From: Clostridiales bacterium
Lineage (GTDB): Bacteria; Bacillota; Clostridia; Oscillospirales; CAG-272
Length of the DNA: 64,000 nucleotides
Assembly: GCA_012840355.1 (NCBI GenBank)
Contig: DULN01000009.1
Location: forward strand, 1 to 64,000
Reading direction: 5' to 3'
Both the position numbers and the translations under genes were made by a program. Below are positions 11,886 to 37,265 of this stretch, piece after piece. Below the pieces are notes generated by a model. The model had not been told where the DNA came from. It did not search any database and worked only from the letters and a program-made list of their open reading frames with translations. Position 1 is the stretch's first letter. Each line of letters starts with the position of its first letter.

Positions 11886-11886
11886 T

Positions 11887-16988: not shown

Positions 16989-18569
16989 TTATACCCCGCT
17001 TGCGCCGTAGTTCGACAAAACGCGGGCTGATGGGTCGTCTACATTGCAGCCTTCCCACGACCTGTTAGGCATCCAGAAATCGACTATCATGTGCGCTTGG
17101 CCGGGATAATACTTTTCAAAAATCTCGCGGTATAGCAGCGACTCGGGCGTATACGGCGGCACGTGCTCGTATCGTGCGCATTTTTTCTTTAGCTCATCCT
17201 CAGTATAAAGCTCCGCGGCATATTCCTTAATGTAATCGACCATCGAATGGCCGACGGCGTCGCTGAACGCCGCCTTCTCGCGCCATAGTATCCTCTCCGG
17301 CAAAATCCCATCCTCGGCAAACGCGCGGCGCAAGAGGTATTTTCCTTTGCCATACCTGTTCATTTTAAGCTCCGGGTTAAGGCTCATCACATACTCGGCA
17401 AACTCGAGGTCGCCGAAAGGCACGCGCGCCTCTAGCGAGTTGACCGCGATGCAACGGTCGGCGCGCAGCACGTCGTACATGTGTATTTCACGGATTCTCT
17501 TTTGTGCCTCGCGCTGAAACTCTTCCGCCGACGGCGCAAAGTCTGTGTATTTGTAGCCAAATAGCTCATCCGAAATCTCGCCGGTCAATAGCACCCTTAT
17601 ATCGGTATGCTCGTGTATGTATTTGCATACAAGATACATACCGATGCTCGCGCGCACGGTCGTTATATCGTACGACGCGAGCGCCTCTATAACCGGCTCG
17701 ATCGCGGCGATGACGTCGTTGCGCGTGATTAGAACTTCGGTATGCTCGCTTTCTATAAACTGCGCGACCTCTCGCGCGTATTTTAAGTCGATCGCGTCGT
17801 CGCTCATGCCGATAGAAAACGTGCGGATCGGCTTACCAAGCTCGTGCCGGGCAATCGCACATACAAGCGACGAGTCAAGCCCGCCGGAAAGCAAGAATCC
17901 CAGCGGTACGTCCGAGTCAAGCCTTTTTACAACCCCCGCAATGAGCTTATCGTGAATATTTTTGCACGCTGTGTCGATATCGTCATAGCATACTTCTTTA
18001 ACCGCCGCGACGTCGCGGTAGCAAACGAACTTTCCGTCGGCATAATAGTGTCCCGGCGGGAATGGCATTATTCGGTCACAGTACCCCACAAGGTTTTTCG
18101 GCTCACTGGCGAACGCGATGTCGCCGTTTTTCGCATAGCCATAATAAAGCGGCCTTATCCCAATAGGGTCGCGCGCGGCTACAAGCGAGCGCCGCCTTGC
18201 GTCCCAAATTATAAGCGCAAACTCCGCGTCGAGCATGCGGAACATGTCGGTGCCGTATTTTTCGTACAGCGGCAAAAGCACCTCGCAGTCTGAGCCGCTT
18301 TTAAAATCATACTCGCTCGAAAGCTGCTTTTTTATTGCGCGGAAGCCGTAAATTTCGCCGTTGCAAACCACATAGTTACCGCCAAGTTCAAAGGGCTGCA
18401 TCCCGCTCTCGTCAAGCCCCATAATCGAAAGCCGCCTAAAGCCCAGCAAAACGCCATCAACCGACACTATCCTTACAGCGTCGGGCCCGCGCGTTTTTGT
18501 TCTATCAAGGAGGCGTCCAAATTCTTCTTCTGAAATCGAGGCGCGCGAGGCGCCCATTATTGTGCACAT
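16989..18569 (-). CDS. asnB: Asparagine synthase (glutamine-hydrolysing)
   Basis: 526 residues. The class II amidotransferase domain begins with catalytic Cys2 (MCTIMG), with NGEIYGFRAIKK downstream. The synthase domain has the PP-loop LSGGLDSSLVCAIA (about 228-241) and the tail motifs expected for AsnB. It converts aspartate, glutamine and ATP to asparagine and glutamate. GGGGGT precedes the ATG. It opens the glutamine island, and asnS at 59.7 kb uses the product. Confidence 0.95.
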   Translation of the reverse strand: MCTIMGASRASISEEEFGRLLDRTKTRGPDAVRIVSVDGVLLGFRRLSIMGLDESGMQPFELGGNYVVCNGEIYGFRAIKKQLSSEYDFKSGSDCEVLLPLYEKYGTDMFRMLDAEFALIIWDARRRSLVAARDPIGIRPLYYGYAKNGDIAFASEPKNLVGYCDRIMPFPPGHYYADGKFVCYRDVAAVKEVCYDDIDTACKNIHDKLIAGVVKRLDSDVPLGFLLSGGLDSSLVCAIARHELGKPIRTFSIGMSDDAIDLKYAREVAQFIESEHTEVLITRNDVIAAIEPVIEALASYDITTVRASIGMYLVCKYIHEHTDIRVLLTGEISDELFGYKYTDFAPSAEEFQREAQKRIREIHMYDVLRADRCIAVNSLEARVPFGDLEFAEYVMSLNPELKMNRYGKGKYLLRRAFAEDGILPERILWREKAAFSDAVGHSMVDYIKEYAAELYTEDELKKKCARYEHVPPYTPESLLYREIFEKYYPGQAHMIVDFWMPNRSWEGCNVDDPSARVLSNYGASGV

Positions 18570-18772: not shown

Positions 18773-20512
18773 TTATTCAACATCCTGCAGGGCGTCGTAG
18801 CCCTCTTCGCCGGTGCGCACCTTTATGACATTCTCGACGTCGTATACAAATATCTTGCCGTCGCCAATATGCCCGGTGTACAGCACTTTCTTTGCGGTTT
18901 CGATTACTTTTGAAACCGGGATCTTGCTTACCACAACCTCAACTTGCACTTTCGGCAAGAGGTTGGTTTCGACGGGCACGCCGCGGTAATACTCAGGCTG
19001 CCCTCTCTGCAGCCCGCACCCAAGCACATGGGTGACGGTCATGCCGGTTATGCCTATTTCGGTAAGCGCGTTCTTTAGCGCCTCGAGCTTCGAGTCTTTG
19101 CAGATAATCTCGACCTTAGTGATCTTGACGCCTGGCTTTGACGATGGCTTCGGCTCGGGCGGCGCTTCTGCGGCAACCGGCACATCGCCTGCAGCTTCAT
19201 CTGGAGCAGCTACTGCGGTCGCCGAGGTAACCGGCGGGGCAATCACAAAGTCCGGATACGCATGGTTGCCATGCTCACCAATGTCAAGTCCGTCAATTTC
19301 CTCTTCGGGAGAGACACGCAAGCCGAGCGTCTTGTCTATGATTATCCATACAAGCGTCGAGGTTACTAGGACAAACGCCGCGACACTTACCGTGCCAATC
19401 AGCTGGCTTACAAGCAGCCCGGCACCGCCTCCGTAGAAGATGCCGCTGTGCTGCGCGTATGAGGTGACGCCCTCTTTTGCGAACAACCCGACAAGCAGCG
19501 TGCCAAGCACTCCGCAGACAAGGTGGACGCTAGTCGCTCCGACCGGGTCGTCGATTTTGATTTTATCAAAGAAAAGCACCGCGAATACTACTACCACGCC
19601 GGCAATTGCGCCAATTATAAGAGAGCCAGCCACGGTCACATATGCGCATCCTGCGGTCACCGCGACAAGCCCCGCAAGGCAGCCGTTTATCGTCATCCCA
19701 AGATCTGGCTTGCCTATGAATAACCACGAGGTGGCGGTCGATGTGAGAATCGCGGCAATTGCCGAAGTGTTCGTCGTCAGGACGATGTGCGCGACGTCTG
19801 CGGGATTGTCAAGGCTCATCGTCGAGCCGGGGTTAAACCCGAACCAGCCGAGCCAAAGAATGAACAGCCCGATAACCGCAAGCGACATATTATGGCCTGG
19901 AATCGCTTTCGGCTTGCCATCGCTGCCGTACTTTCCGATACGCGGGCCTAGTAAAGCGGCGCCTGTCAGCGCAGCCCAGCCTCCGACCGAGTGCACGGCT
20001 GTGCTACCCGCAAAGTCGTGGAATGGGACCTTTAGCGTCGAGAGCCATCCTCCGCCCCATATCCAGTGCCCGGTTATCGGATATATGAGCAAAGTAAGGA
20101 TGAACGAGAATACTATAAACGATATATACTTGATGCGTTCGGCAACGGCGCCGGACACTATGGTCGCTGCGGTTCCGCAGAAGACAAGCATCCAGAAGAA
20201 GTTTGCCCAAAACGGGATTCCGTTGCCGGAGAGGTAATACGGGGTATTGTTAAGCTCTTCAGCCGTCTTGCCGAGTATCCATAGGTTTTCGGTGCCGACA
20301 AAGGGGTTTGTTCCCCCTTGCATCAGCCCCCAGCCAAGGAGCATAAAGCCAAGCGAAGAAACGGCAAAGACTATAAAGTTTTTCGACAGGATGTTGACGG
20401 CGTTTTTGCTTCTCGCAAATCCCGATTCGACTGCGGCGAAGCCTAAATTCATAAAGAACACTAGGAAACCTGCAACCAAAACCCATAGAGTATTGACTAT
20501 GCTATACTCCAT
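18773..20512 (-). CDS. Ammonium transporter fused to a P-II (GlnB/GlnK) domain
   Basis: 579 residues. The N-terminal 405 or so residues form an 11-helix Amt channel (FFMNLGFAAVESGF; pore region GGWAALTGAALLGPR; DDPVGATSVHLVCG). An Ala/Pro/Glu linker (about 410-460) leads to a complete P-II domain with T-loop GQPEYYRGVP, B-loop TGHIGDGKIFVYDVENVIKV. Free P-II trimers normally plug Amt trimers when nitrogen is ample; covalent fusion makes the gate part of the channel. It is 42 bp downstream of glnN, in the same operon. Confidence 0.95.
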   Translation of the reverse strand: MEYSIVNTLWVLVAGFLVFFMNLGFAAVESGFARSKNAVNILSKNFIVFAVSSLGFMLLGWGLMQGGTNPFVGTENLWILGKTAEELNNTPYYLSGNGIPFWANFFWMLVFCGTAATIVSGAVAERIKYISFIVFSFILTLLIYPITGHWIWGGGWLSTLKVPFHDFAGSTAVHSVGGWAALTGAALLGPRIGKYGSDGKPKAIPGHNMSLAVIGLFILWLGWFGFNPGSTMSLDNPADVAHIVLTTNTSAIAAILTSTATSWLFIGKPDLGMTINGCLAGLVAVTAGCAYVTVAGSLIIGAIAGVVVVFAVLFFDKIKIDDPVGATSVHLVCGVLGTLLVGLFAKEGVTSYAQHSGIFYGGGAGLLVSQLIGTVSVAAFVLVTSTLVWIIIDKTLGLRVSPEEEIDGLDIGEHGNHAYPDFVIAPPVTSATAVAAPDEAAGDVPVAAEAPPEPKPSSKPGVKITKVEIICKDSKLEALKNALTEIGITGMTVTHVLGCGLQRGQPEYYRGVPVETNLLPKVQVEVVVSKIPVSKVIETAKKVLYTGHIGDGKIFVYDVENVIKVRTGEEGYDALQDVE

Positions 20513-20554: not shown

Positions 20555-22651
20555 TTACCTAACGCTGAATAGCAGGTCGCCGTAAGTGGGGAATGGCCAG
20601 TATTTTGCCGCCACTATAAGCTCCGCCTCGTCTACCGCGGCGCGCAGCTCATTCATCTTTGGTATCACAAGGTCGCGATAGCCGCAGGCCTCCTCTGCTA
20701 CGTCTTTGATGCTGTGAACTTTTATAACCGCATCCTCAAGCGCGTCGGCCCTCGACGAGATAATGCTCATTAGAGTCGAAAGGCGTTCGAGCAAGCCCTT
20801 TTCATAGCTTATGTCGATGCTTTCAGATACCGCCTTCTTTGCTGCCGCGGTATTTGCAATATCGGATACATAAGCGGCGATTGCTGGAAGAATCTGCTTG
20901 CGCGTCATGTCGAGCATCGTCAAAGCTTCGATGTTTGTGACTTTGCAGTAATTCGACAGCAAGATTTCATATCTCGCGTGCAGTTCCTCCGCCGAGTACA
21001 CATTGTGGCTGGTCATAAGGTCGATATTCTTCTTGCTGATAAGGTGAGGAACCGCATCCGGCGTGGTCTTGAGGTTCAGCAGCCCGCGCTTTTCGACAGC
21101 TTCCTTCACCCATGCTTCGTCGTAGCCGTTGCCGTTGAAGATAATGCGCTTATGCTTGCTTATCGTCGTCTTTATAAGGTCGTTGAGCGTTGCTTTGAAG
21201 TCCGAGGCACCCTCAAGCACATCCGCAAACTGGCGTAGCGACTCAGCAACCGCGGTGTTAAGCATCGTGTTGGCGTCGGCTATGCTGCTTGACGAGCCGA
21301 CCATGCGGAACTCAAACTTGTTGCCGGTAAACGCGAACGGCGAGGTCCTGTTGCGGTCGGTCGTGTCTTTGGGCAGCTGTGGGAGAATAGACGTGCCAAG
21401 CAGTATCTTCTCTTTTGCCGCCGCATTATAGGGCTTGCCAGACTCAATCGACTCAAGGATCGCGGTAAGCTCGCTGCCAAGATAAACCGACACGATAGCC
21501 GGTGGAGCTTCGTTGGCGCCTAGCCGCAAATCGTTCGACGCCGTTGCGACCGAAAGGCGGAGCAGGTCCTGATAATCGTCCACCGCTTTGATTACCGCGA
21601 CAAGGAACAAGAGGAACTGCGCGTTTTCGTACGGCGTTTCGCCCGGCGAGAGCAGGTTTACCCCGGTGTTCGTCTCAAGCGACCAGTTGTTGTGCTTGCC
21701 GGAGCCGTTCACACCAGCAAAAGGCTTCTCGTGGAGCAGGCAAACAAGCCCATGGCGCAGCGCGACCTGCTGCATAATCTCCATTACCAGCTGGTTGTGG
21801 TCGGTCGCGACGTTGAGCGTCGTGTGGATAGGCGCAAGCTCGTGCTGGGAGGGCGCGACCTCGTTGTGCTCGGTCTTCGCGAGAACTCCAAGCTTCCAAA
21901 GTTCTTCGTTGAGGTCTTCCATAAACGCTGCAACGCGCGGCTTTATCGAGCCGAAGTAGTGGTCTTCAAGCTCCTGGCCTTTGGGCGGGCGTGCTCCAAA
22001 CAGCGTGCGGCCAGTAAAAATCAAGTCGGGCCGCCTTTCGTAAAGCGCGCGGTCTACAAGGAAGTATTCCTGCTCGGGTCCGACGGTGGGATAAACATAC
22101 GAAACATCTGTGTTCCCGAAAAGCCGCAGGATGCGCAGCGCCTGCTTGTTGAGCGCCTCCATCGAACGAAGCAGCGGCGTCTTTTTGTCGAGCGCGTGGC
22201 CGCCGTACGAACAGAACGCGGTCGGGATGCAAAGCGTCTTGCCCTTTATAAACGCGTAAGAGGTTGGGTCCCAAGCGGTGTAGCCGCGAGCTTCAAACGT
22301 GGCACGCAAGCCGCCCGACGGGAATGACGACGCGTCCGGCTCGCCGCGGACCAGCTGCTTGCCCGAAAACTCCATTATGACTTTGCCGTCGGGAGTCGGC
22401 GAGATGAAGCTGTCGTGCTTTTCGGCGGTGATACCGGTTAGCGGCTGGAACCAGTGCGTGTAATGTGTCGCCCCGTGCTCGATCGCCCAATCCTTCATCG
22501 CGTTAGCGACTACGTTCGCTACCTCGATGTCAAGGTCCTTGCCTTCCTTTATGGTACGCATCAGGGAATTGTAGGTCTCTGCGGGAAGGCGCTGTTTCAT
22601 TACTGTCGGGCCGAAGACGAGTGAGCCGAAATAATCGGGGAGCTTTTTCAT
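20555..22651 (-). CDS. glnN: Type III glutamine synthetase
   Basis: 698 residues, the length of GSIII. It makes glutamine from glutamate, ammonium and ATP. Seen: [20 protein letters not shown] near the N-terminus, [29 protein letters not shown] and [15 protein letters not shown] (catalytic barrel), [18 protein letters not shown]-type ribosome site just upstream. First gene of glnN-amt/P-II; its leader holds a promoter at 22743-22771 and an attenuator-like hairpin at 22696-22733. Confidence 0.96.
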
Positions 22652-22695
22652 ATGGAGCCTCCTGTTGCCTTCTCAAAGTTTTTTACAAAGATAAA

Positions 22696-22733
22696 GCGCC
22701 GCAGATACCAATCTGCGGCGCCTTTGCCGTATT
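22696..22733 (-). promoter_or_regulatory. glnN leader: terminator hairpin overlapped by an A1/G4 hexaloop hairpin
   Basis: On the minus-strand RNA, GCGCCGCAGAT-TGGT-ATCTGCGGCGC (22721-22696) forms a perfect 11-bp stem followed by TTTATCTTT. Just before and overlapping it, CGGC-AAAGGC-GCCG forms a small stem with a 6-nt loop having A at position 1 and G at position 4, as in ANTAR targets. The two cannot form together. The attenuator role is inference; the known ANTAR motif has two such hairpins and only one fits after the predicted start site. Confidence 0.55.
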
Positions 22734-22742
22734 GACACTAAC

Positions 22743-22771
22743 ATTATAATCGCGCTGTATCAATTTGTCAA
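22743..22771 (-). promoter_or_regulatory. Sigma-A consensus promoter of glnN
   Basis: Minus strand: TTGACA (22771-22766), 17-bp spacer, TATAAT (22748-22743), both perfect. The predicted start near 22736 gives a leader of about 85 nt containing the hairpins at 22696-22733. Confidence 0.92.
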
Positions 22772-22858
22772 TAGTTTTTTCAAAAATGCATGACATTTTA
22801 AAAGATTATGCATATTCGTCAATGCCGAGGCAATTAGCTGGGCAATTGCTTGTGTGTA

Positions 22859-22887
22859 TTGCAAGATTGTGTATTGTGTTCTTGCAA
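22859..22887. promoter_or_regulatory. Dyad TTGCAAGA-N13-TCTTGCAA between the divergent nitrogen promoters
   Basis: Perfect 8-bp inverted repeat with 13 bp between arms, inside a run of TGTGTATTG-like direct repeats (22850-22880). It ends 5 bp before the -35 box of the glutamate synthase promoter. It does not match the GlnR/TnrA consensus TGTNA-N7-TNACA. A regulator-binding site is inferred from position and symmetry. Confidence 0.45.
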
Positions 22888-22892
22888 ATCCA

Positions 22893-22922
22893 TTGACAAA
22901 ATAGCAACCTACCGATTATAAT
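22893..22922 (+). promoter_or_regulatory. Sigma-A promoter of the glutamate synthase operon
   Basis: TTGACA at 22893-22898, an 18-bp spacer, TATAAT at 22917-22922. The predicted start near 22929 is directly upstream of the leader hairpins at 22932-22990. Confidence 0.88.
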
Positions 22923-22931
22923 AATACTACC

Positions 22932-22990
22932 GTGAACAATGGCGTTCATCAGCGGGCAAGCTATGCCCGCGCGATGAGCGCCTTTTTCTT
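22932..22990 (+). promoter_or_regulatory. Glutamate synthase leader: attenuator with A1/G4 hexaloop hairpin
   Basis: GGCGTTCATC (22941-22950) pairs with GATGAGCGCC, enclosing a second stem GCGGGC/GCCCGC, and is followed by TTTTT: a terminator about 50 bp before the first gene. An alternative hairpin, TGAAC-AATGGC-GTTCA (22933-22948), uses the 5' arm of that terminator and presents a 6-nt loop with A1 and G4. This is the geometry by which ANTAR proteins prevent termination; the operon itself encodes an ANTAR protein at 29348. Confidence 0.62.
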
Positions 22991-23042
22991 TCCTTATTAA
23001 TATTTGTGCGTTTATTCTGAAAATTACGGACGGTGATCACTG

Positions 23043-24143
23043 ATGAAGCTTGTCGAAGGCCGGGTGCGCATCCCGTCGGGTTGCGCGATTTCCGGAATCA
23101 TATCGCGCGACAGAAGAAAATTTACCGGCGAGCGCATTGTCGAGTCTATGAAAGTCATGCGCGAGCGATCTAACGGGCTTGGCGGGGGTTTTGCGGCATA
23201 TGGCATTTATCCCAAATACAAAGACAGCTACGCGCTGCATATATTTTATAACGATTCAAACGCCAAGCGCGAGTGCGAAGCATTTTTGAACGAACATTTT
23301 GAAATCGACGAAGCGTCGGAGCTGCCGACGCGCAAAATCCCCGAAATCACCGACGAGCCGCTTATCTGGCGCTATTTTGCGCTACCCCGCCCGTCAAGGC
23401 TCGCGGCAAGCCAGCTCGACGAGCGAGAATACACCGCGCGCTGCGTGTTCGCCATTAACGCGCGAATCGACGGCGCTTATGTTTTCTCAAGCGGCAAGAA
23501 TATGGGCGTGTTTAAAGCGGTTGGATACCCAGAGGACGTCGGAAGGTTTTACATGCTCGACGAGTACGAAGGCTATATGTTCATCGGCCACGGCCGCTAT
23601 CCTACAAATACCCCCGGTTGGTGGGGAGGCGCACACCCATTCTCGCTTTTGGACTTTGCCGTAGTGCACAACGGCGAAATCTCGTCCTATGACGCAAACC
23701 GAAGGTTTATTGAGATGTTCGGCTACCGGTGCGCGCTGATGACCGATACCGAGGTTATCACTTATATTCTCGATTATCTCATACGCCACGTGGGGCTGAC
23801 GCTTGAAGAGAGCGCTTCGGTTATTGCGGCGCCTTTCTGGAGCTCGATTGCAAAAAAGCCGCCCGAAGAGCGCGAGCGGCTGACGTACCTGCGCACAATG
23901 TTCCCGAGCCTGCTTGTCACCGGACCGTTTTCGATTATTTTCTGCTTTGAAGGCGGCATGATGGCGCTTAACGACCGGCTAAAGCTGCGCTCGATGGTCA
24001 CCGCCGAAAAAGGCGACATGGTCTATGTCGCAAGCGAAGAATGCGCTATACGCGCGGTAGAGCCCGACGCAGAAAACCTGCGATATCCTTCTGGCGGCGA
24101 GCCGGTAATCGTAACACTAAACGGAGGCAAAGACAATGCCTAA
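23043..24143 (+). CDS. Glutamate synthase amidotransferase subunit (class II GATase, GlxB/MgsA-like)
   Basis: 366 residues. An N-terminal-nucleophile amidotransferase with GCAISGIISRD, GHGRYPTNTPGW (substrate Arg region) and VVHNGEISSYDANRRFIE, as in split, archaeal-type glutamate synthases. The presumed catalytic Cys is residue 14, so a 13-residue propeptide must be removed, or a start codon is missed; no in-frame start abuts the Cys. It releases ammonia from glutamine for the FMN subunit encoded next, whose ATG overlaps its stop by 8 bp. The same fold occurs in N-methylglutamate synthase. Confidence 0.88.
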   Translation: MKLVEGRVRIPSGCAISGIISRDRRKFTGERIVESMKVMRERSNGLGGGFAAYGIYPKYKDSYALHIFYNDSNAKRECEAFLNEHFEIDEASELPTRKIPEITDEPLIWRYFALPRPSRLAASQLDEREYTARCVFAINARIDGAYVFSSGKNMGVFKAVGYPEDVGRFYMLDEYEGYMFIGHGRYPTNTPGWWGGAHPFSLLDFAVVHNGEISSYDANRRFIEMFGYRCALMTDTEVITYILDYLIRHVGLTLEESASVIAAPFWSSIAKKPPEERERLTYLRTMFPSLLVTGPFSIIFCFEGGMMALNDRLKLRSMVTAEKGDMVYVASEECAIRAVEPDAENLRYPSGGEPVIVTLNGGKDNA

Positions 24144-25638
24144 TTATATCTTACCGGATTTTGAAGTTGAGCGAAGAGACGACAGATGCATCCGTTGCCG
24201 TGTTTGCGAACGGCAATGCGCCAACGAGGTGCACTCATACGATGAAGAAAATGATGTCATGCTTGCCGATGAGTTGAAATGCGTCGGCTGCCACCGCTGT
24301 GTTGCGCTCTGCCCTACGCGTGCACTGAAAATTGTAAAATATAGCGGCACTTTCCGTGAAAACGCTAACTGGTCAAACCAGTCGATACTGGAGATTTACA
24401 AGCAGGCTGAAAGCGGCGGCGTGCTTTTGTCTTCCATGGGCACGCCAAACCCATGTCCCGTTTATTTCGATAAAATCCTCATCAACGCCTCTCAGGTTAC
24501 AAACCCCTCGATCGACCCACTACGCGAGCCGATGGAAACGCGCGTCTTCCTCGGCAAAAGACCCCAAAATATAGAGCGCGACGAGACAGGCAAGCTCAAT
24601 AACAACCTGCCGCCCCAGCTTGAACTTTCGGTTCCGATCATGTTTTCGGCGATGTCGTACGGCTCGATAAGCTACAACGCGCACGAGAGCCTCGCGCGCG
24701 CGGCGACCGAGCTTGGCATCTACTACAATACCGGCGAAGGCGGCTTGCACGAGGACTTCTACAAATATGGCCCGAACACGATTGTTCAGGTCGCATCCGG
24801 ACGATTCGGCGTGCATAAGGGTTACCTCGACGTCGCCGCAGCGATTGAAATCAAGATGGGCCAAGGCGCAAAGCCGGGCATCGGCGGGCACCTTCCCGGC
24901 GAAAAAATCACAGAAGACGTCTCACGTGCCCGCATGATCCCCGTCGGCACCGACGCAATCTCGCCGGCGCCGCACCACGATATATATTCAATTGAAGATT
25001 TGCGCCAGCTTGTCTACTCGCTCAAAGAAGCGACCGAGTACAAAAAGCCGGTCATTGTAAAAGTCGCGGCGGTACACAACATCGCGGCGATAGCCAGCGG
25101 CATAGCGCGCAGCGGCGCGGACATAATCGCAATCGACGGCTTCCGCGGCGGAACTGGCGCGGCGCCGACCCGCATACGCGACAACGTCGGCATCCCCATC
25201 GAGCTTGCGCTCGCAAGCGTCGACAAGCGGCTGCGCGACGAGGGCATCCGCGGCAATGTCTCGCTTGTCGTGGCGGGTAGCATCCGCAACTCGGCCGACG
25301 TCGTCAAAGCCATCGCGCTCGGCGCGGACGCCTGCTACATAGGCACGGCGGCTCTCATCGCGCTCGGCTGCCATCTTTGCAGGACCTGCCACCTTGGCAA
25401 ATGCAATTGGGGCATCGCGACCCAGCGCCCCGACCTTGTAAAGCGGCTTAATCCCGAAATCGGTTACAAGAGGCTTGTCAACCTCGTCACCGCATGGCAG
25501 CACGAAATCAAAGAGCTACTCGGCGGCATGGGCATCAACTCAATCGAGGCGCTGCGCGGAAACCGGCTTATGCTGCGAGGCGTCGGCCTCAACGAAAAAG
25601 AGCTTGAGATTTTAGGAATTAAACATGCGGGCGAGTAA
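24136..25638 (+). CDS. Glutamate synthase FMN subunit with N-terminal 2[4Fe-4S] ferredoxin domain (archaeal-type GltB)
   Basis: 500 residues. The N-terminal ferredoxin has CIRCRVCERQC (about 19-29) and CVGCHRCVALCP (about 52-63). The (beta/alpha)8 glutamate synthase domain follows with GGFRGGTGAAPTRIRDNVG (FMN and 2-oxoglutarate site) and the [3Fe-4S] ligand run CHLCRTCHLGKC. The protein reductively aminates 2-oxoglutarate with ammonia delivered from the GATase. The layout is that of split, archaeal-type enzymes rather than the large NADPH-GOGAT alpha chain. Electrons presumably arrive through the ferredoxin and FAD subunits encoded downstream. Confidence 0.94.
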   Translation: MPNYILPDFEVERRDDRCIRCRVCERQCANEVHSYDEENDVMLADELKCVGCHRCVALCPTRALKIVKYSGTFRENANWSNQSILEIYKQAESGGVLLSSMGTPNPCPVYFDKILINASQVTNPSIDPLREPMETRVFLGKRPQNIERDETGKLNNNLPPQLELSVPIMFSAMSYGSISYNAHESLARAATELGIYYNTGEGGLHEDFYKYGPNTIVQVASGRFGVHKGYLDVAAAIEIKMGQGAKPGIGGHLPGEKITEDVSRARMIPVGTDAISPAPHHDIYSIEDLRQLVYSLKEATEYKKPVIVKVAAVHNIAAIASGIARSGADIIAIDGFRGGTGAAPTRIRDNVGIPIELALASVDKRLRDEGIRGNVSLVVAGSIRNSADVVKAIALGADACYIGTAALIALGCHLCRTCHLGKCNWGIATQRPDLVKRLNPEIGYKRLVNLVTAWQHEIKELLGGMGINSIEALRGNRLMLRGVGLNEKELEILGIKHAGE

Positions 25639-25672
25639 TCCTTGCAAATCCCACAGGCTAAGGGGAGTAGTT

Positions 25673-26107
25673 ATGAAAAGAGTATACGTTAATGAAAAAT
25701 GGTGCCTCGGCTGCCGGCTCTGCGAGTACAACTGCGCCTTCGCCAACTCGGGTGAAAAAGATATGGTAAAGGCGCTGAAAGGCAAAAAAATTTACCCGCG
25801 TATCAGGGTCGACGAGCATGACGGCATTACTTTTGCGGTATCCTGCCGCCACTGCGAGGATCCGATCTGCGTCAAAAGCTGCATCGCGGGCGCACTATCA
25901 AAAGAAGGCGATGGCATGGTAAAGCTCGACCGCACAAAGTGCGTCGGCTGCCTTACCTGCGTGCTCGTCTGCCCATATGGGGCGGTCGTCCAGGACGAGA
26001 GGGGCGCGGCGTTAAAATGCGAACTGTGCCTTACCAATACCGCCGGATACCCCGCATGCGTTAAAGGCTGCCCAAACGCTGCCATCGTTTACGAAGAGAG
26101 GGATTGA
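25673..26107 (+). CDS. Four-cluster [4Fe-4S] ferredoxin-type electron carrier subunit
   Basis: 144 residues from ATG 25673, preceded by AGGGGAG; an upstream in-frame ATG at 25625 overlaps the previous gene. Four cysteine groups are visible: CLGCRLCEYNC, CRHCEDPICVKSC, CVGCLTCVLVCP and CELC...CVKGCP, the HycB/DmsB-like pattern for four cubane clusters. It probably wires the FAD subunit (26110) to the FMN subunit (24136). Confidence 0.92.
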   Translation: MKRVYVNEKWCLGCRLCEYNCAFANSGEKDMVKALKGKKIYPRIRVDEHDGITFAVSCRHCEDPICVKSCIAGALSKEGDGMVKLDRTKCVGCLTCVLVCPYGAVVQDERGAALKCELCLTNTAGYPACVKGCPNAAIVYEERD

Positions 26108-26109
26108 AA

Positions 26110-27345
26110 ATGATATCAAAATATGTTATAATAGGCGGAGGCGTTGCTTCAACCGGTTGCATTGAGGGCATCCGCAAAGTAGACCCGTCAGGCGGGATAA
26201 CGCTTATCACCGCCGAACCATACCTTACCTATTGCCGCCCGCTTATCTCATACCTGCTCGAGGGCAAAACGACGCTGGAGAAGATGCTATACCGGCCCGA
26301 GAGCTTCTATGAGAAAAACGGCGTGCGGGTTATGCTCGCCACAAAATCTGAGCGCATTGACCCAGAGCGCAAAACCGTTATGCTCTCGGACGGCACAAGC
26401 ATAGGCTATGAGAAACTCCTATGCGCGACGGGATCGGTGCCTTTTGTGCCGCCGTTTGAAGGGCTCGATACAGTAAAAAGTAAATTTTCGTTTTTGACAC
26501 TTGACGACGCGCTTGAACTCGAGAGAGCCATCACCCCCGAGTCGCGCGTCTTTATAGTAGGCGCGGGGCTTATCGGCCTCAAATGCGCCGAAGGCATCCA
26601 CGGCCGGGTCGGCAGCATCACAGTCTGCGACCTTGCGCCGCAGGTGCTGGCAAGCATACTCGATTCTGACAGCGCCAATATTGTCGAGGAAACCCTCCAA
26701 AGCCATGGCATAAATCTTATCCTCGGCGACACTGTGGCAAAATTCGAGGAGAATGTGGCGATCCTGCAAAGCGGCGCGAGTGTCGAGTTTGACGTTCTCG
26801 TGCTTGCGGTCGGCGTCCGCCCAAACGTCGCGCTCGTGCGCGACGCGGGCGGGAAGATCGGGCGCGGCATAATCGTCGACGACACGATGCTCACCTCGCT
26901 GCCCGACGTCTATGCCGCAGGGGATTGCACTGAAAGCTTCGATATAACCTCGTCCTCAAGCCGCGTGCTAGCCATCTTGCCAAACGCATATATGCAGGGC
27001 GAGTGCGCCGGCATAAACATGGCGGAGGGATACTCCAGCTATGCAAACGCCGTCCCGATGAACTCGGTCGGGTTTTTCGGCCTTCACATCGCGACTGCCG
27101 GCACCTATACCGGAGAGCTGCACGAAATACGCACCCTGGGCTGCCTGAAAAAGCTATATGTAAATGAAGGCAGGCTCGTCGGATTTATCATCATCGGCGA
27201 CACGACTCGCGCTGGTATTTATACCTCCTTGATACGAAACAAAACGCCGCTTGATGAGATCGATTTCGAGCTTATAAAAAATTATCCTTCCCTTATGGCT
27301 TTTTCGGGAAATTCTCGATTGAAAATGCTCGGAGGTGTGGTATAA
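26110..27345 (+). CDS. FAD-dependent NAD(P)H oxidoreductase subunit (pyridine-nucleotide disulfide reductase fold)
   Basis: 411 residues from ATG 26110; TTG 26104 is an alternative. FAD-binding GGGVASTGCIEGI at the N-terminus, NAD(P)-binding VGAGLIGLKCAEGI near 155-170, and the second FAD motif VYAAGDCTE near 265-275. It resembles NirB/rubredoxin reductase-type flavoproteins. In this operon it most likely supplies electrons from NAD(P)H to the glutamate synthase ferredoxin. Its TAA overlaps the next ATG by one base. Confidence 0.92.
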   Translation: MISKYVIIGGGVASTGCIEGIRKVDPSGGITLITAEPYLTYCRPLISYLLEGKTTLEKMLYRPESFYEKNGVRVMLATKSERIDPERKTVMLSDGTSIGYEKLLCATGSVPFVPPFEGLDTVKSKFSFLTLDDALELERAITPESRVFIVGAGLIGLKCAEGIHGRVGSITVCDLAPQVLASILDSDSANIVEETLQSHGINLILGDTVAKFEENVAILQSGASVEFDVLVLAVGVRPNVALVRDAGGKIGRGIIVDDTMLTSLPDVYAAGDCTESFDITSSSSRVLAILPNAYMQGECAGINMAEGYSSYANAVPMNSVGFFGLHIATAGTYTGELHEIRTLGCLKKLYVNEGRLVGFIIIGDTTRAGIYTSLIRNKTPLDEIDFELIKNYPSLMAFSGNSRLKMLGGVV

Positions 27346-28073
27346 TGGTTATAAATGCGTACGGCCTCGATTTTAAGGAGCTTAACGCGAAAATTCGCGC
27401 CGTGGGATCCGATTGCGTTGTGGAAGGCTGCATCGGGCAGCGCTATATCGGCGAAGGGCTTGACGGAGTGACGCTGAAGCTGTACGGCACCCCGGGCAAC
27501 ACGCTCGGCGGCTATCTCAACGGCGCCACCATTGAAGTGTTCGGCAACGCGCAAGACGAGGTCGGCGACACGATGAACGCCGGCCGCATCATTGTACATG
27601 GCAATATCGGCGATGCGGCAGGCTACGCGATGCGCGGAGGAGTAATCTGCGTTCGCGGCAACGCCGGTTACCGAACCGGCATCCACATGAAAGAGTACAA
27701 AGACAAGCGCCCGGTGATTATAATCGGCGGCTATACAGGCAGCTTTCTCGGCGAATACCAAGCCGGCGGCGTTATAATAGTACTGGGGCTTGGCGGCCCA
27801 AGCCCTTATACCGGCAACATCGTCGGCGAGTTCCCCTGCACGGGAATGCATGGCGGAAAGCTCTTTTTGCGCGGTAGGGCGGAAGGCGTGGATTTCCCCG
27901 CCCAAGTAAACGTCCGCCTAGCCGGCGAAGAAGACAGGGCTGAGCTTGCGGGGCACCTTGAGATTTTCGCATACTCGTTTGGATACCCGCTCGGCTGGCT
28001 GCTTGACAGCGACTACACGGTCGTGACGCCGAACACCAAAAGACCGTACAAACAGCTTTATGTACAGAACTGA
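27345..28073 (+). CDS. Glutamate synthase GXGXG-domain subunit (GltB C-terminal-like / GlxC, MgsB-like)
   Basis: 242 residues forming a right-handed beta-helix with repeated G-x-G turns (GTPGNTLGGYLNGA, GNAQDEVGDTMNAG, GNIGDAAGYAMRGG, GNAGYRTGIHM). In one-chain GOGAT this domain is the C-terminal end of the alpha subunit and holds the ammonia tunnel together; here it is a separate gene, completing the five-part enzyme. Confidence 0.93.
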   Translation: MVINAYGLDFKELNAKIRAVGSDCVVEGCIGQRYIGEGLDGVTLKLYGTPGNTLGGYLNGATIEVFGNAQDEVGDTMNAGRIIVHGNIGDAAGYAMRGGVICVRGNAGYRTGIHMKEYKDKRPVIIIGGYTGSFLGEYQAGGVIIVLGLGGPSPYTGNIVGEFPCTGMHGGKLFLRGRAEGVDFPAQVNVRLAGEEDRAELAGHLEIFAYSFGYPLGWLLDSDYTVVTPNTKRPYKQLYVQN

Positions 28074-28087: not shown

Positions 28088-29302
28088 ATGGGATACACAA
28101 TTGACGAGGTTATGCAATATGTCGCGGAAGAGGACGTAAAGTTCATCCGGCTCGCCTTTTGCGACATATTCGGCAAACCGATGAATATTTCCATCATGCC
28201 GACGGAGCTGGAACGCGCATTTTTGCATGGTATAGCGTTCGATGCTTCCGCCGTCCGCGGCTTCGGCGAGGAATCCGGCTCCGATTTGATTCTGTGCCCC
28301 GACCCGTCGACCCTGGCGCTTTTGCCCTGGCGTCCCGAGCACGGCAGGGTCGTGCGCATGTACTGCAATATCACCTATCCCGACGGCAGCCCATTCGAGC
28401 TTGACACCCGCAGCCTCCTTGCCGCCGCCGATGAGAAGGCGAAAGCCGCCGGTTACAGCTTCAAGTTCGGCACCGAGTATGAATTTTACCTTTTCAAAAC
28501 CGACGAGCACGGCCTGCCCACGCGCGAACCTTACGACCGGGCAGGCTATATGGATATAGCCCCCGAAGACAAGGGGGAAAACATCCGCAGGGAAATCTGC
28601 CTCACGCTCGAACAGATGGGAATAATCCCCGAGTCTTCCCATCACGAGGAAGGCCCGGGTCAAAATACAATTGCGTTCCGCTACTCCGATCCGCTTTCTG
28701 CCGCGGATAACGCAATCACATTTAAGTCTGTGGTCCGCACGATAACAGCCCGCAGCGGGCTTTTCGCGGACTTTTCGCCCAAACCGCTTGATGACGCGCC
28801 GGGGAACGCCCTGCACGTCCATATCTCCGCCACCGCTGACGACAGCCGCGACTGTATCCCCGGCATCGTCGCCGGAGTGCTAACCCGCGCGCGCGAGCTT
28901 ACGGCGTTTTTCAACCCCTCCGAGGAATCTTACAAGAGGCTCGGCAAAATGAAAGCGCCGGCATATGTTTCGTGGTCGCACGGCAACCGCTCCCAGCTTG
29001 TCAGAGTACCTGTAGCGCAATGGGGAAACCGCCGCGTCGAGCTGCGCTCGCCCGATCCGCTAGCAAATCCCTACCTTATAATACTCTTGCTTATTTACGC
29101 GTGCCTTGAGGGATTCGAGAGCGGCGCTATGCTGCCGGAGCCGATAAATATAGATTTGAACGCTTCCGGCGCAGTGGAAGGCATGTGCCTTCAGCAGCTT
29201 CCAAAAACATACCAAGACGCGAAAAAGCTCGCGCTCGAGAGCGATTTTGTTCGCGCGCATTTGCCGAAAAGGCTTCTTGACTCCTTTTTCGGCAAGCAGT
29301 GA
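28088..29302 (+). CDS. Glutamine-synthetase-like protein (GSI fold) lacking the flap glutamate
   Basis: 404 residues, about 40 shorter than B. subtilis GlnA, mainly at the C-terminus. Metal and substrate residues are present: GTEYEF (E130, E132), HHEEGPGQNTIAFRYSD (E187/188), HVHIS (H243), NRSQLVR and RRVELRSPDPLANPYL. The flap containing catalytic Glu327 of Salmonella GS (YKRLVPGYEAP) is YKRLGKMKAP: one residue shorter with Lys289 where Glu is expected. Glu327 takes the proton from ammonium, so normal activity is doubtful. Options are a ligase for another amine, or a glutamine/ATP sensor. It sits between glutamate synthase and an ANTAR gene. Confidence 0.85.
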   Translation: MGYTIDEVMQYVAEEDVKFIRLAFCDIFGKPMNISIMPTELERAFLHGIAFDASAVRGFGEESGSDLILCPDPSTLALLPWRPEHGRVVRMYCNITYPDGSPFELDTRSLLAAADEKAKAAGYSFKFGTEYEFYLFKTDEHGLPTREPYDRAGYMDIAPEDKGENIRREICLTLEQMGIIPESSHHEEGPGQNTIAFRYSDPLSAADNAITFKSVVRTITARSGLFADFSPKPLDDAPGNALHVHISATADDSRDCIPGIVAGVLTRARELTAFFNPSEESYKRLGKMKAPAYVSWSHGNRSQLVRVPVAQWGNRRVELRSPDPLANPYLIILLLIYACLEGFESGAMLPEPINIDLNASGAVEGMCLQQLPKTYQDAKKLALESDFVRAHLPKRLLDSFFGKQ

Positions 29303-29347: not shown

Positions 29348-29938
29348 ATGACATTCGACGAACGTACTTACAATACGCTCGTTGTCTCTGCGTCCGCGAA
29401 ACTGACGGAGTTTTTGGAGCCGCTGCTCCCTAAATCCGAGTTTTGGCCTGTCACTGTCGTGCGCGATATAGGCAGCGCCAAACGCGCGACACTGGAGTCG
29501 GAGTTTGATATTGTTATTGTCAACACACCTCTTCCGGACGAATTCGGCTGCGATTTCGCGATCGAAATCTGCCAATCCAGCGATGCGGGCGTGCTTATGT
29601 TTGTCAAAAGCGAGCTCGCCGAAGATATAACCGAGCGGGTAAGCGGCTTTGGCGTTTATGTGCTAGCAAAGCCCGTCACGAAGCCCGCGGTGGCATCTGC
29701 GCTAAAGCTGCTCTGCGCGACGCGGGAACGCCTGCGCCGGATTGAAAAGAAGTTTGAGACGCTTGAGAATAAAATGGAAGAAATCCGTTTGGTCAACCGC
29801 GCCAAATGGATACTAATAGACCAGTTTAAAATGACAGAAGCCGAAGCCCACCGTTTTATTGAAAAGCAAGCAATGGATATGCGTATTACAAAACGGGCGG
29901 CTGCGGAAAATATAATAAAGACGTACCAATCTCAATAA
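29348..29938 (+). CDS. ANTAR-domain RNA-binding antiterminator with a pseudo-receiver domain
   Basis: 196 residues. The N-terminal domain (about 8-120) has the receiver fold, but the phospho-acceptor Asp is Asn59 (IVIVNTPLP) and the N-terminal acidic pair is missing, while the Lys108 of LAKPV is kept: phosphorylation is unlikely. A coiled coil (about 122-145) leads to an ANTAR domain (about 146-193) with the typical RAKWILIDQFKMTEAEAH...A.NIIKTY pattern. ANTAR proteins bind paired hexaloop hairpins in leader RNA and block terminators. Its likely targets are the leaders at 22696-22733 and 22932-22990. Confidence 0.9.
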   Translation: MTFDERTYNTLVVSASAKLTEFLEPLLPKSEFWPVTVVRDIGSAKRATLESEFDIVIVNTPLPDEFGCDFAIEICQSSDAGVLMFVKSELAEDITERVSGFGVYVLAKPVTKPAVASALKLLCATRERLRRIEKKFETLENKMEEIRLVNRAKWILIDQFKMTEAEAHRFIEKQAMDMRITKRAAAENIIKTYQSQ

Positions 29939-29957: not shown

Positions 29958-31370
29958 ATGCAGTATTTTTGCAGTCGCAGGCACTGCACAACAAACGAAG
30001 ACAAGCCTCATGAGGAGTGCGCGGTTTTCGGCATAAGCCTTCATGGCAGCGACGAAGCCGCGGGCCTTACATACAATGCCCTTCTCTCGCTCCAGCACCG
30101 GGGGCAGGAGGGTAGCGGCATCGCCGTAACCGTCGACAACCAGATAGTCGTTCACAAAGGCATGGGGCTTGTCGGCGACGTGTTCGGTGGCGGCGCGCTG
30201 GCTGAGCTACCAAAAAGCTCGTCGGCTCTTGGCCATAACCGATACTCAACGGCAGGTGGCAGCAGCGAACAGAACGTCCAGCCTTTCGTCACCGAGTATC
30301 TGACCGGGCGGCATGCCGCGGCGCATAATGGAAACGTGACGAATGCCGACGAACTGCGCGAGTGGCTCCGCAAACTCGGCGTCCGCTTTGAAGCGACAAG
30401 CGACAGCGAGGTAATCTCTGCGCTGGTGGCTTACTATACCGTCACTCTCGGCGATATAAAAGCAGGCGTTAAAAAAGCGGTGTCCGAGCTCCGCGGCGCG
30501 TTTTCGCTTGTCATACTGTGCGGCGACGGCAGGATTGTCGCTGTCCGTGACGCCGACGGTTTCAGGCCGCTTTGCATCGGCGTCGGCGAAAGCGGCATAG
30601 CGGTTGCGTCCGAAAGCTGCGCGCTCGATGCGATAGACTATAAGTTCCTACGCGATGTCGAGCCGGGTGAGCTTGTCGTCTTTGAGGGCGGAGAGCTCGT
30701 TTACTCGGAAAAAGTACTCACACATCGCACTCCCGACAATGGCCTTTGCATCTTTGAATACGTATACTTTGCCCGCCCCGACTCGGTAATCGACGGCGTG
30801 TCTGTATACGAGGCAAGATTTAATATGGGGCGCACGCTCGCGCGCGAGCATCCGGCCGAAGCCGATGTCGTTTGCGGAGTTCCTGACTCCGGACTCGAGG
30901 CTGCGGCCGGATTTGCTGCGGAAAGCGGTCTTCCGCTGGTTACCGGTTTTGTCAAAAACCGCTATCTCGGCAGGAGCTTCATATATCCGACCCAAGCCCA
31001 GCGCAAAAAAATCGTCAAGCTCAAGCTCAACCCGCTGCGCGCGAACATAGAAGGCAAAAGGGTGGTGCTTGTCGACGATTCGATCGTGCGCGGCACGACA
31101 AGCGAGAAGATAGTCGCGTCCCTGCGCGAAGCCGGGGCTAAAGAAGTGCACCTACGCATTTCGTCGCCGCCGTTTAGGCATGTCTGCCGATACGGCACCG
31201 ACATCGCAAGCGAGGACGCGCTTATCGCGAACCATATGACTGTCGACCAGATTTGTAAGAAACTTGGAGCGGACAGCCTCGGTTATATCAGCGTGGAAGG
31301 GCTTGTTGCGGCTTGCGGTAAGCCTGCCGAGTATTTCTGCAAGCAGTGCTTTGTCGGTCGCCGCGGATAA
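29958..31370 (+). CDS. purF: Amidophosphoribosyltransferase
   Basis: 470 residues. The class II GATase nucleophile is Cys21 (HEECAVFGI) behind a propeptide, as in B. subtilis PurF. The PRPP-binding motif VVLVDDSIVRGTTS is at about 370. Cysteines matching the iron-sulfur cluster of the Bacillus-type enzyme are present (HVCRYG and FCKQC near the C-terminus). It catalyses the first step of purine synthesis with glutamine as nitrogen donor. Its placement behind the nitrogen genes, away from other pur genes, is unusual. Confidence 0.96.
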   Translation: MQYFCSRRHCTTNEDKPHEECAVFGISLHGSDEAAGLTYNALLSLQHRGQEGSGIAVTVDNQIVVHKGMGLVGDVFGGGALAELPKSSSALGHNRYSTAGGSSEQNVQPFVTEYLTGRHAAAHNGNVTNADELREWLRKLGVRFEATSDSEVISALVAYYTVTLGDIKAGVKKAVSELRGAFSLVILCGDGRIVAVRDADGFRPLCIGVGESGIAVASESCALDAIDYKFLRDVEPGELVVFEGGELVYSEKVLTHRTPDNGLCIFEYVYFARPDSVIDGVSVYEARFNMGRTLAREHPAEADVVCGVPDSGLEAAAGFAAESGLPLVTGFVKNRYLGRSFIYPTQAQRKKIVKLKLNPLRANIEGKRVVLVDDSIVRGTTSEKIVASLREAGAKEVHLRISSPPFRHVCRYGTDIASEDALIANHMTVDQICKKLGADSLGYISVEGLVAACGKPAEYFCKQCFVGRRG

Positions 31371-31413
31371 TTCGGGAATTCTAGTAAGGAGAGTTACGGT
31401 AAACCCGGCATTT

Positions 31414-32496
31414 ATGGCTGAAAAGAAAGCGTATTTAATACTCGAAGACGGGCAGTGCTTTGAAGGATACGCCTTCGGAGCGGAAAAAGAAGTGACCGGC
31501 GAAGTGGTATTCACCACCGCGATGACAGGCTATCTTGAAACACTGACCGACAAAAGCTACTACGGACAGATTATAACCCAGACATTCCCGCTTATAGGCA
31601 ACTATGGGGTTATTCCGGAAGATTTCGAGGGCAAAAGCATCCGTGCGTTCGGTTATATCGTAAACGACCTCTGCACGGCGCCCTCAAACTTCCGTTGCCA
31701 AGGCACGCTCGACAAATTCCTGCGCGAGCAGGGCGTGCCGGGGATTTTCGGCATCGACACAAGGAAGCTTACGCTTATCCTTCGCTCACGCGGGACGATG
31801 AACGGGAGAATTGCATATGCTCCCGAGTATTCGCCCGATATCGCAGCGTATAAAATAAAGGACGCCGTCAAAAACGTTTCGGTCGCCTCGCCGGTTTCCG
31901 GACGGGGCGGCAATTTTAAAGTGGCGATGCTCGACTACGGCTACAAAGAAAACATACGCCGCGAGCTTGAGCAGCGGGGTTGCAGCGTCACGATATTCCC
32001 ATACAACACCTCCGCGAAAGAAATTGCGGACTTTAGCCCCGACGGCATAATGCTTTCAAACGGCCCCGGCAACCCCGCGGATAATACCGAATCAATCGCC
32101 ACATTGCGAGAGCTTTTCAAAAGTACCGAAATACCGATGTTCGGAATCTGCCTCGGGCACCAACTTCTCGCGCTCGCCGCGGGATTTTCGACAGAAAAGC
32201 TCAAGTTCGGCCATCGCGGCTCCAACCAGCCGGCAAAAGACGTTGTCACCGGCAGGACATACATCACCACGCAAAACCACGGCTACGTGGTTACCAGCGA
32301 AAGCGTGGATCCCGAAATAGCGCAAACTCGTTTCGTAAATATGAACGACGGTACAAACGAAGGACTGCAGTACAAAAGGAAATGGACGTTCTCAGTCCAG
32401 TTCCATCCTGAAGGCTGCGGGGGTCCGCGCGACACCGCGTTCCTTTTCGACGAGTTTGTAAAGCTCATGGGGGAGTATAGACGTGCCAAAGGATAA
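31414..32496 (+). CDS. carA: Carbamoyl-phosphate synthase small (glutaminase) subunit
   Basis: 360 residues from ATG 31414. The class I GATase triad is visible: Cys in GICLGHQ, His in FHPEG and the following Glu. The N-terminal CPSase_sm domain starts KAYLILEDGQCFEG. AAGGAGAG at 31386-31393 is 20 nt from this ATG, rather far, and no better in-frame start is nearer. It feeds ammonia to CarB; the carB GTG overlaps its 3' end by 14 bp. Confidence 0.95.
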   Translation: MAEKKAYLILEDGQCFEGYAFGAEKEVTGEVVFTTAMTGYLETLTDKSYYGQIITQTFPLIGNYGVIPEDFEGKSIRAFGYIVNDLCTAPSNFRCQGTLDKFLREQGVPGIFGIDTRKLTLILRSRGTMNGRIAYAPEYSPDIAAYKIKDAVKNVSVASPVSGRGGNFKVAMLDYGYKENIRRELEQRGCSVTIFPYNTSAKEIADFSPDGIMLSNGPGNPADNTESIATLRELFKSTEIPMFGICLGHQLLALAAGFSTEKLKFGHRGSNQPAKDVVTGRTYITTQNHGYVVTSESVDPEIAQTRFVNMNDGTNEGLQYKRKWTFSVQFHPEGCGGPRDTAFLFDEFVKLMGEYRRAKG

Positions 32497-35400
32497 TTCC
32501 ATAAAGAAGGTAATGCTCATCGGCTCCGGCCCGATCGCCATCGGGCAGGCTGCCGAGTTTGACTATGCGGGAACGCAAGCTTGCCGCGTGCTGCGCGAAG
32601 AAGGCGTGGAGATAGTGCTTGTCAACTCAAACCCGGCGACAATCATGACCGACAGCGTTATGGCCGATAAAATATATATAGAGCCGCTGACGCTGACTAC
32701 CGTGCGCCGGATTATCGAAAAAGAGCGTCCGGACAGCATACTCTCAGGAATGGGTGGGCAGACGGGGCTTACGCTCTGTATGCAGCTCGCGCGCACCGGC
32801 GTGCTTGAAAAATACGGCGTGCGGTTGCTCGGCAGCTCGCCTGAAACCATCGACAAAGCCGAGGACAGAAAGCTCTTCAAAGAGACGATGCAGTCCATTG
32901 GGCAACCTGTCATCCCCTCGGCTATCGCGACGAGCATGGAGGAAGCATATGCGTTCGCCGAGGAAAACGGCTACCCGGTAATAATCCGCCCAGCGTTCAC
33001 GCTCGGCGGCAGCGGCGGCGGCATCGCGCATAACCGCGCCGAGCTGACCGAAGTCGCGTCGACCGGACTTGCCGCGTCGCCTATCGGGCAGATTCTCGTC
33101 GAACGCTGCGTCGCCGGCTGGAAGGAAATCGAGTTTGAGGTAATGCGCGACAAGATCGGCAACGTCATCGCGGTATGTTCAATGGAAAATATCGATCCGG
33201 TAGGGATACATACCGGTGACAGCATTGTCGTCGCGCCCGCTTTGACTCTCGCCGACCGCGAGTATCAGATGCTGCGCTCAGCAGCGCTCGACATCATCCA
33301 GGCGCTCGGTGTCGAAGGTGGCTGCAACGTGCAGTTCGCGCTCAACCCAAACAGCTTTGAGTATGCGGTCATTGAGGTCAACCCGCGCGTTTCGCGTTCG
33401 TCTGCGCTCGCATCGAAGGCGACCGGCTATCCCATCGCAAAAGTCGCGACGAGGATCGCGCTCGGCTACACGCTCGATGAGATTAAGAACGTCGTCACCG
33501 GTAAAACCTGCGCCGCATTTGAGCCTTCGCTCGACTATGTTGCCGTCAAGATGCCAAAATGGCCCTTCGACAAGTTCGTCTATGCCAGCCGCGAGCTTGG
33601 CACGCAGATGAAGGCGACCGGCGAGGTAATGAGCATTTCCGACACATTTGAGGACGCGCTGCTTAAAGCCATCCGCGGCGCAGAGATCGGGCGCAAGACG
33701 CTCGAGGCACCTGAATACCGCGATTTGCCTGACAAAAAACTCAGGGAGCTTCTTGTCCACGCTACCGACGACCGGCTTTTCGTCATCGGCGAGGCGATAC
33801 GCCGCGGCTACTCGGACGATGAGCTTTACGAGCTTACTAAAATCGACCGGTTCTTTATCGACAAGTTCCGCAACATTGTGGAAGGTAAAGTGCGTACCGG
33901 CAAACCGGTGTATCGCATGGTCGACACTTGCGCGGGCGAGTTTGAGGCCCAGACCCCGTATTTTTATGCGGTGCCAAACGGCGACGGAAAATTTGCTGAC
34001 GAGGCAGGCGAGTTTGTCGCGCGCAGCACGAAGCCGCGCGTAGTCGTCATCGGATCAGGCCCCATCAGGATCGGCCAAGGCATCGAGTTCGACTATGCCT
34101 GCGTGCGGTGCGTCTTCGCGCTCAAGGAGATGGGCTATGAAGCGATTGTCATAAACAACAACCCCGAGACCGTCTCGACAGACTTTGACATCTCCGACAG
34201 GCTATACTTTGAGCCACTGACAATCGACGACGTGATGCGGGTCATCGAGATTGAAAAGCCGCTCGGCGTTATTGTCGCGTTCGGCGGAGGCACCTCAGTG
34301 AAGCTCGCAAAGCAGCTTGACGAGCGCGGCGTTAAAATCCTTGGCACCGGCGCCGAGGCGATTGACATCTGCGAGGACCGCAAGCGTTTTGACGCGCTGC
34401 TCGAGTCGCTCGGCATAAAGCGGCCGAAAGGCTACTCGGTCACCAGCGAAGAGGAAGCGATCCATGCCGCCGAGGAGCTAGGCTATCCCGTGCTCATGCG
34501 CCCCTCGTATGTGCTCGGCGGTCAGAATATGATTATAGCGTATGGCGAGGACGACGTCGTCGAGTATGCTCGCATCATTTTCTCGCACCGCCAAGACCGC
34601 CCGGTGCTTATCGACAAATATATAAGCGGGCTTGAAGTCGAGGTCGACGCAATTTCCGACGGCAAAGAAGTGCTTCTGCCCGGTATTATGGAGCATGTCG
34701 AGCGGTCGGGCATTCACTCGGGCGACAGCATAGCCATTTACCCCGCCATCCACGTCAGCGAGGAGATGGCAAACCGCATCTTCGAGGAAACAAAGAAAAT
34801 CTGCCTTGCGCTAAATGTGCGCGGGCTTATAAACGTGCAGTACCTCATCAGTGGCGGCGAGCTGTATGTTATAGAGGTTAACCCGCGCGCGTCGCGCACG
34901 GTTCCATATCTCAGTAAGGTGACCGGTATCCCGATGTGCACAGTCGCAACGCGCATTATGATGGGCGAGTCGCTCGCAGATTGTGGATATTCCGACGGCA
35001 TCGCGCCAATCACGCCGTATTTCGCGGTTAAAGTGCCGGTCTTCTCGTTTGAAAAGCTCTCGGGCGTCGACACCCAGCTTGGCCCGGAGATGAAGTCGAC
35101 TGGCGAGGTTCTCGGCATCGGGCGCGATATGCGGGAGGCGCTTTATAAGGGCCTTGTCGCGGCCGGGTATAAAATGAAGCGCAAAGGCGGGGTTATTTTC
35201 ACGGTACGCGACTCCGACAAAAGCGAGATCGCCGCAATCGCGAGGAAATTCCGCGTGATGGGCTTTAGGCTATACGCCACCTCGGGTACAGCGGTAGAAA
35301 TCCGCGCGGGCGGCATGCCTGTGACGGTTTTAAACAAAATCAGCGAAAATCCGCGCGATAACCCCATAACGGCACTTGACAGCGGCGAAATTTCTTATAT

Positions 35401-35611
35401 AATTTCTACATCGGCAAAAGGAAGAAATCCCGCATTTGACGACGTAAAGATACGCCGGCGCGCGGTATCGCTCGGCATCCCGTGCCTTACTTCTATTGAC
35501 ACCGCCAATGCGCTGGCCGACAGCTTGCAAAGCGGGTATAACGAGGAGAATGTCAGCTTGATAGACATCAATGAATACATCCAATCGATAAAAGCGGATA
35601 GGGGCGTTTAA
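32483..35611 (+). CDS. carB: Carbamoyl-phosphate synthase large subunit
   Basis: 1042 residues from GTG 32483, with GGGGGAG 7 nt upstream. Two homologous ATP-grasp halves are evident: N-terminal [17 protein letters not shown] and C-terminal [17 protein letters not shown], each followed by INVQ/CNVQ...EVNPR substrate motifs. The MGS-like allosteric domain occupies about 920-1042. It makes carbamoyl phosphate for pyrimidines and arginine. Continuous with carA and pyrG. Confidence 0.97.
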
Positions 35612-35615
35612 GATT

Positions 35616-37238: not shown

Positions 37239-37265
37239 AAGCGGGATATAGGCCCACTTATTGGG

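Follow-up and report, generated by a model that had tools for sequence, protein, structure and literature searches.

The window analysed here is the stretch of 64,000 nucleotides at positions 1 to 64,000 (forward strand) of contig DULN01000009.1, assembly GCA_012840355.1, from a Clostridiales bacterium of the order Oscillospirales. In it the glutamine synthetase gene glnN and an operon for a split glutamate synthase (glt) diverge from an intergenic spacer of 391 bp, and two divergent transcription units lie inside this spacer, so that glnN stands downstream of the first putative switch and the glutamate synthase genes downstream of the second (Table 1). The genes for the ammonium transporter (amt/PII) and for AsnB are presumably co-transcribed with glnN, and likewise the purF-carA-carB-pyrG-NAD synthetase genes with the glt-ANTAR genes. 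Elsewhere in the window, a tetrahydrofolate riboswitch is found at 11778-11886 (Rfam THF, 78.4 bits).

Table 1. Coordinates of the genes and regulatory features of the glnN-glt region within the window
Feature	Position	Strand	Basis
asnB, asparagine synthase (glutamine-hydrolysing), third gene	16989..18569	-	annotation
Ammonium transporter fused to P-II, next after glnN	18773..20512	-	Pfam
glnN, type III glutamine synthetase	20555..22651	-	Pfam GSIII_N
glnN leader intrinsic terminator	22693..22724	-	stem with 14 pairs, 4-nt loop (computed)
Single A1/G4 hexaloop, putative antiterminator hairpin CGGC-AAAGGC-GCCG, glnN leader	22716..22729	-	sequence and covariance model
glnN promoter TTGACA-17-TATAAT	22743..22771	-	12/12 sigma-70 consensus
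glt operon promoter TTGACA-18-TATAAT	22893..22922	+	12/12 sigma-70 consensus
Single A1/G4 hexaloop, putative antiterminator hairpin GTGAAC-AATGGC-GTTCAT, glt leader	22932..22949	+	sequence and covariance model
glt leader intrinsic terminator and TTTTT tract	22941..22987	+	sequence, folding
Split glutamate synthase genes: glutaminase domain, FMN domain, ferredoxin, oxidoreductase, GXGXG	23043..28073	+	Pfam
Glutamine synthetase homologue, proposed sensor	28088..29302	+	NCBIfam GlnA 299.6 bits, below 429 cut-off
ANTAR protein (pseudo-receiver and ANTAR domain), proposed regulator	29348..29938	+	Pfam PF03861, E=3.5e-16
purF, carA, carB, pyrG, NAD synthetase, same direction	29958..39277	+	annotation

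The first-pass annotation had proposed that both leaders carry a matching hexaloop hairpin, with A at the first and G at the fourth loop position, laid over a terminator. This is confirmed: the loops read AAAGGC in the glnN leader and AATGGC in the glt leader, and both are closed by a C-G pair. In both leaders part of the loop and the 3' arm of the hairpin also build the 5' arm of the terminator. For the glnN terminator an energy of -24.4 kcal/mol was calculated against -5.2 for the hairpin; in the glt leader the hairpin overlaps a terminator with a 10-bp base (22941-22982, followed by TTTTT), and the respective values are -31.6 kcal/mol for the terminator and -4.6 for the hairpin. Hexaloop hairpin and intrinsic terminator are mutually exclusive on folding, and when growing transcripts were folded the hairpin appeared at about nucleotide 24 and the terminator took over some 20-30 nt further on, from about nucleotides 40-52.

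The organism clearly uses sigma-70 promoters with all twelve consensus bases, which occur 122 times genome-wide against 0 for a reversed control pattern. Of the shuffled leaders, 0.9% had a T-run together with a C-A..G..-G hexaloop on a stem of 4 bp or more, and the paired occurrence of hexaloop and terminator is far above chance. A covariance model of the hairpin only, searched against the whole 2.16-Mb genome, placed the glnN leader first (22713-22732) and the glt leader second (22931-22950); nine further matches scored lower, and promoter and terminator are missing around the eight of these that were looked at. The E-values of this model are rough, with many chance matches in coding regions at E<0.3, and the counts given below therefore rest on promoter and terminator context. 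Rfam searches of the window and leaders gave no match in the leader region at the gathering threshold, and chance matches only at relaxed E-values; a glutamine riboswitch or other aptamer was set aside, since Rfam lends it no support and conservation is confined to about 20 nt.

Leaders of glnN and glt were then compared among 97 related genomes and 80 additional named loci, from the class Clostridia and mainly from Oscillospiraceae/Ruminococcaceae and unplaced Clostridia MAGs of gut and rumen, but including the isolate Merdimmobilis hominis. A glnN paralog of less than 64% identity was kept apart, because the switch is nearly absent there (1/18 and 0/24). Since selecting for the answer had to be avoided, any hairpin after the promoter was taken for the loop counts, without a condition on the loop; among the hexaloops so found in ANTAR-positive genomes, A1 is conserved in 95/96, G4 in 94/96 and A2 in 93/96, and loops of seemingly different length mostly proved to be this element, A1 having been taken as paired with a U at position 6. 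The stems beneath these loops are diverse (ATGAGC/GTTCAT, AAGGC/GTCTT, CAGC/GCTG, CGGC/GCCG and GAGAC/GTCTC are examples), and their covariation score of 0.57 compares with 0.24 for shuffled and at most 0.17 for slid partners. The four inner pairs of the stem served as a selection criterion; the next pair outward, which was not selected on, is formed in 47/57, with A-U and U-A forms both present. The two comparative tests proposed with the first-pass annotation, for covariation in the small stems and for conservation of A1 and G4, thus both came out in favour of the element, and a terminator overlapped by such a hairpin was found in dozens of genera. A C-G closing pair is common in the relatives; it was a selection condition in one set, and most loops collected without condition have it too. 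The next pair is mostly G-U or A-U, also G-C. This pattern fits the requirement of EutV, the ANTAR protein of Enterococcus faecalis, for closing pairs of specific sequence (PMC3369931).

The element also keeps company with ANTAR genes. It is present in 37/46 ANTAR-positive and 2/39 ANTAR-negative related genomes; given this relatedness, significance values are nominal. Of the nine ANTAR-positive genomes counted as lacking it, at least five have units outside the leaders sampled for this count. In ANTAR-negative genomes only one of 14 glnN leaders has a hexaloop. Within the same genus, neither ANTAR gene nor hexaloop is present in genome G001, which speaks for a link between the two; genome G002, in which the glt-ANTAR genes have been deleted and the glnN hexaloop kept, speaks against it, as does G048, a second exception. 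At the G002 locus (L292, G002:C32:1-7000) the whole glt-GS-like-ANTAR block is gone, and short collinear remnants are left between glnN and purF.

Taken together, it appears highly likely that both leaders are single-hexaloop antitermination switches read by the ANTAR protein encoded in the glt operon, and, as judged from sequence comparison, that the hairpin before the ammonia-assimilation genes of these gut and rumen Clostridia is very probably held open by such a protein. Transcription would start a few bases 5' of the small A1/G4 hairpin. Left unbound, the hairpin would lose its 3' half to the stronger terminator hairpin, and transcription would stop; when active, the ANTAR protein would bind the hexaloop and the top base pairs, and would keep the hairpin in place until RNA polymerase is past the U-tract. 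Read-through would then allow transcription of glnN-amt/PII-asnB on one side, and on the other of glt-GS-like-ANTAR with the genes that follow; since the ANTAR gene lies behind one of the switches, its product would activate its own expression. The upstream recruitment hairpin (P1) known from other ANTAR targets would not be used, a single hexaloop at the very 5' end being sufficient. The signal would be nitrogen status, perhaps conveyed by the neighbouring GS-like protein and not by phosphorylation.

A different account would be that the leaders are attenuators governed by folding kinetics or by some other RNA-binding protein, with A1 and G4 incidental. The competing pair of structures does already arise from folding alone, and the retention of the element in G002 would be readily understood; yet conservation extends to A1 and A2, which mostly have no need to pair in either structure, and presence of the switch tracks the ANTAR gene across the whole order, so that such an attenuator is considered improbable. 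Conservation of G4-G5-C6 alone would be weaker evidence on this point, because the 3' half of the loop pairs in the terminator. It is harder still to believe that there is no switch at all, the terminators acting constitutively or on behalf of the divergent gene, as might be expected of such strong ones in so short a spacer between divergent genes: each of them stands downstream of a perfect promoter and upstream of the gene that it would silence, the hairpin overlapping it covaries across many genera, and the element precedes other genes also, pyrG, guaA and gdhA among them.

A further alternative is that these are ordinary dual-hexaloop ANTAR leaders in which the second hairpin has been overlooked, either upstream of a misplaced start or inside the terminator. 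All characterised ANTAR targets (eut, nasF, amiE) do have two hairpins (PMC3369931, PMC8934654), and EutV needs both of them in vivo (PMC3369931), which counts against a single-hairpin reading. Nevertheless, the first-pass annotation had noted room for only one hairpin after each predicted start, and this is borne out: the distance from the +1 position, as predicted from promoter sequence, to the stem is at most 6 nt in 54/57 promoter-proximal units, and that from the -10 box to A1 of the loop is 14-16 nt in 42/57. An upstream A1/G4 hexaloop was seen within the order in 4/96 switches against 2.5 expected, which is not above chance, and a second hexaloop downstream or inside the terminator in 8/57 against 4.7 expected, not clearly above chance. 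As a positive control the same scanner was applied to 40 ANTAR loci from the wider phylum, and there it found P1 in 26/52 switches outside the order, where 1.7 were expected (Fisher p 8e-11 for the difference, a nominal value); the dual motif is evidently detectable where it is present. An overlooked hairpin is accordingly very unlikely, and the single-hairpin variant suggested earlier is a real form, P1 being near chance here and common outside the order. The paired hairpins P1 and P2 with a short linker that define the dual-hexaloop class were not found in these RNAs, which are on that account not members of it, but very probably they work like its members. At the loci outside the order (L326-L365), both single and dual switches are found, upstream of glnA, of amt, of glutamate synthase and also of the ANTAR genes; the single ones sometimes share a locus with dual ones, and lie farther from the promoter.

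The proposed regulator is encoded by the only ANTAR gene of the genome (one match over the cut-off). Its receiver domain scores below the Pfam cut-off, and the phospho-acceptor position, occupied in EutV by the phosphorylated Asp54, is Asn59, with Asn in 29/29 orthologs. The structure model has a mean pLDDT of 91.5, and the nearest folds are Rv1626, EutV and AmiR; EutV was matched in both its RNA-free and its RNA-bound form, the latter with a TM of 0.72. Several of the residues through which EutV contacts RNA differ. Lys149, Glu160 and Met172 are kept, Met172 being essential for RNA binding by EutV, whereas Arg142 is changed to Ile, Tyr164 to His and Arg168 to Glu in the clade, and Arg177 is not kept, which must be counted against the proposed reading. 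Arg142 is nearly invariant in ANTAR proteins outside the order, and this is at most suggestive of a change in contact residues that accompanied a change of RNA target. Directly upstream of the ANTAR gene, in 74/74 loci, lies the glutamine synthetase homologue. Its catalytic flap Glu is replaced by Lys in 77/78 orthologs, and it also lacks the Asn of the NGSG motif and the Arg of PASRG; it is probably catalytically dead and kept as a sensor. By analogy with the control of TnrA by glutamine synthetase (reviewed in PMC6316151), the homologue may control the ANTAR protein.

ANTAR control of GS/GOGAT genes is already known. In Clostridium saccharobutylicum the gene for the ANTAR protein NitR is linked with glnA. 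NitR induces the GS/GOGAT genes under nitrogen limitation by antitermination (PMC6316151), as is predicted here; the differences are that the neighbouring glutamine synthetase homologue in the present case looks catalytically dead and that the regulon seems larger. Ramesh et al. reported in 2012 ANTAR motifs before genes for glutamate synthase, glutamine synthetase, P-II and ammonium transporters (PMC3369931), but their search would miss the present leaders because it required two hairpins. With EutV and the eut leaders the system described here has in common a response-regulator-like protein with an ANTAR domain, A1/G4 hexaloops with conserved closing pairs, and overlap with the 5' arm of the terminator (PMC3369931, PMC8934654); it differs in having one hairpin at the start of the transcript in place of two joined by a short linker. 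NasR/nasF and AmiR/amiE likewise exemplify ANTAR antitermination of nitrogen-related operons, but with dual hexaloops, and NasR senses nitrate through a NIT domain while AmiR is restrained by AmiC.

The open-access literature yielded no description of antitermination by a single hexaloop. The EutV structure paper, in which a dimer was found to bind one hexaloop, asks why antitermination needs two and urges that targets with a single hexaloop be looked for (PMC8934654); the present leaders are natural candidates. Because this natural set of one-hairpin leaders from many genera contrasts with the dual-hairpin leaders outside the order, the role of P1 becomes directly testable.

Units of the same kind in relatives precede pyrG, guaA, purA and gdhA, whose products are recognised from sequence as CTP synthase, GMP synthase, adenylosuccinate synthetase and glutamate dehydrogenase, respectively; with the operons of the window these genes make up what is, by their predicted functions, a coherent ammonia/glutamine regulon. 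The switch is likely to be a master switch of nitrogen assimilation in abundant and poorly studied bacteria of gut and rumen, and it points to an unusual predicted sensor pair, a dead glutamine synthetase and an ANTAR protein blind to phosphorylation. It is tempting to go further and to suggest, tentatively, a self-contained system of nitrogen sensing by antitermination, in which the ANTAR protein would act independently of phosphorylation and would be gated by a dedicated, catalytically dead glutamine synthetase as the sensor of glutamine or ammonium. By reading single 5'-end hexaloops, the ANTAR protein might then control ammonia assimilation together with the biosynthetic pathways that use glutamine (glnN, glt, asnB, purF, carAB, pyrG, guaA, gdhA) throughout an order of gut Clostridia; this fuller scheme is possible, but rather doubtful as a whole. 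Of the 34 glnN leaders with a hexaloop, 10 have two or three hexaloop-terminator units one after another, as at L043, L046 and L053; such an arrangement was not seen in any glt leader of the 97-genome set.
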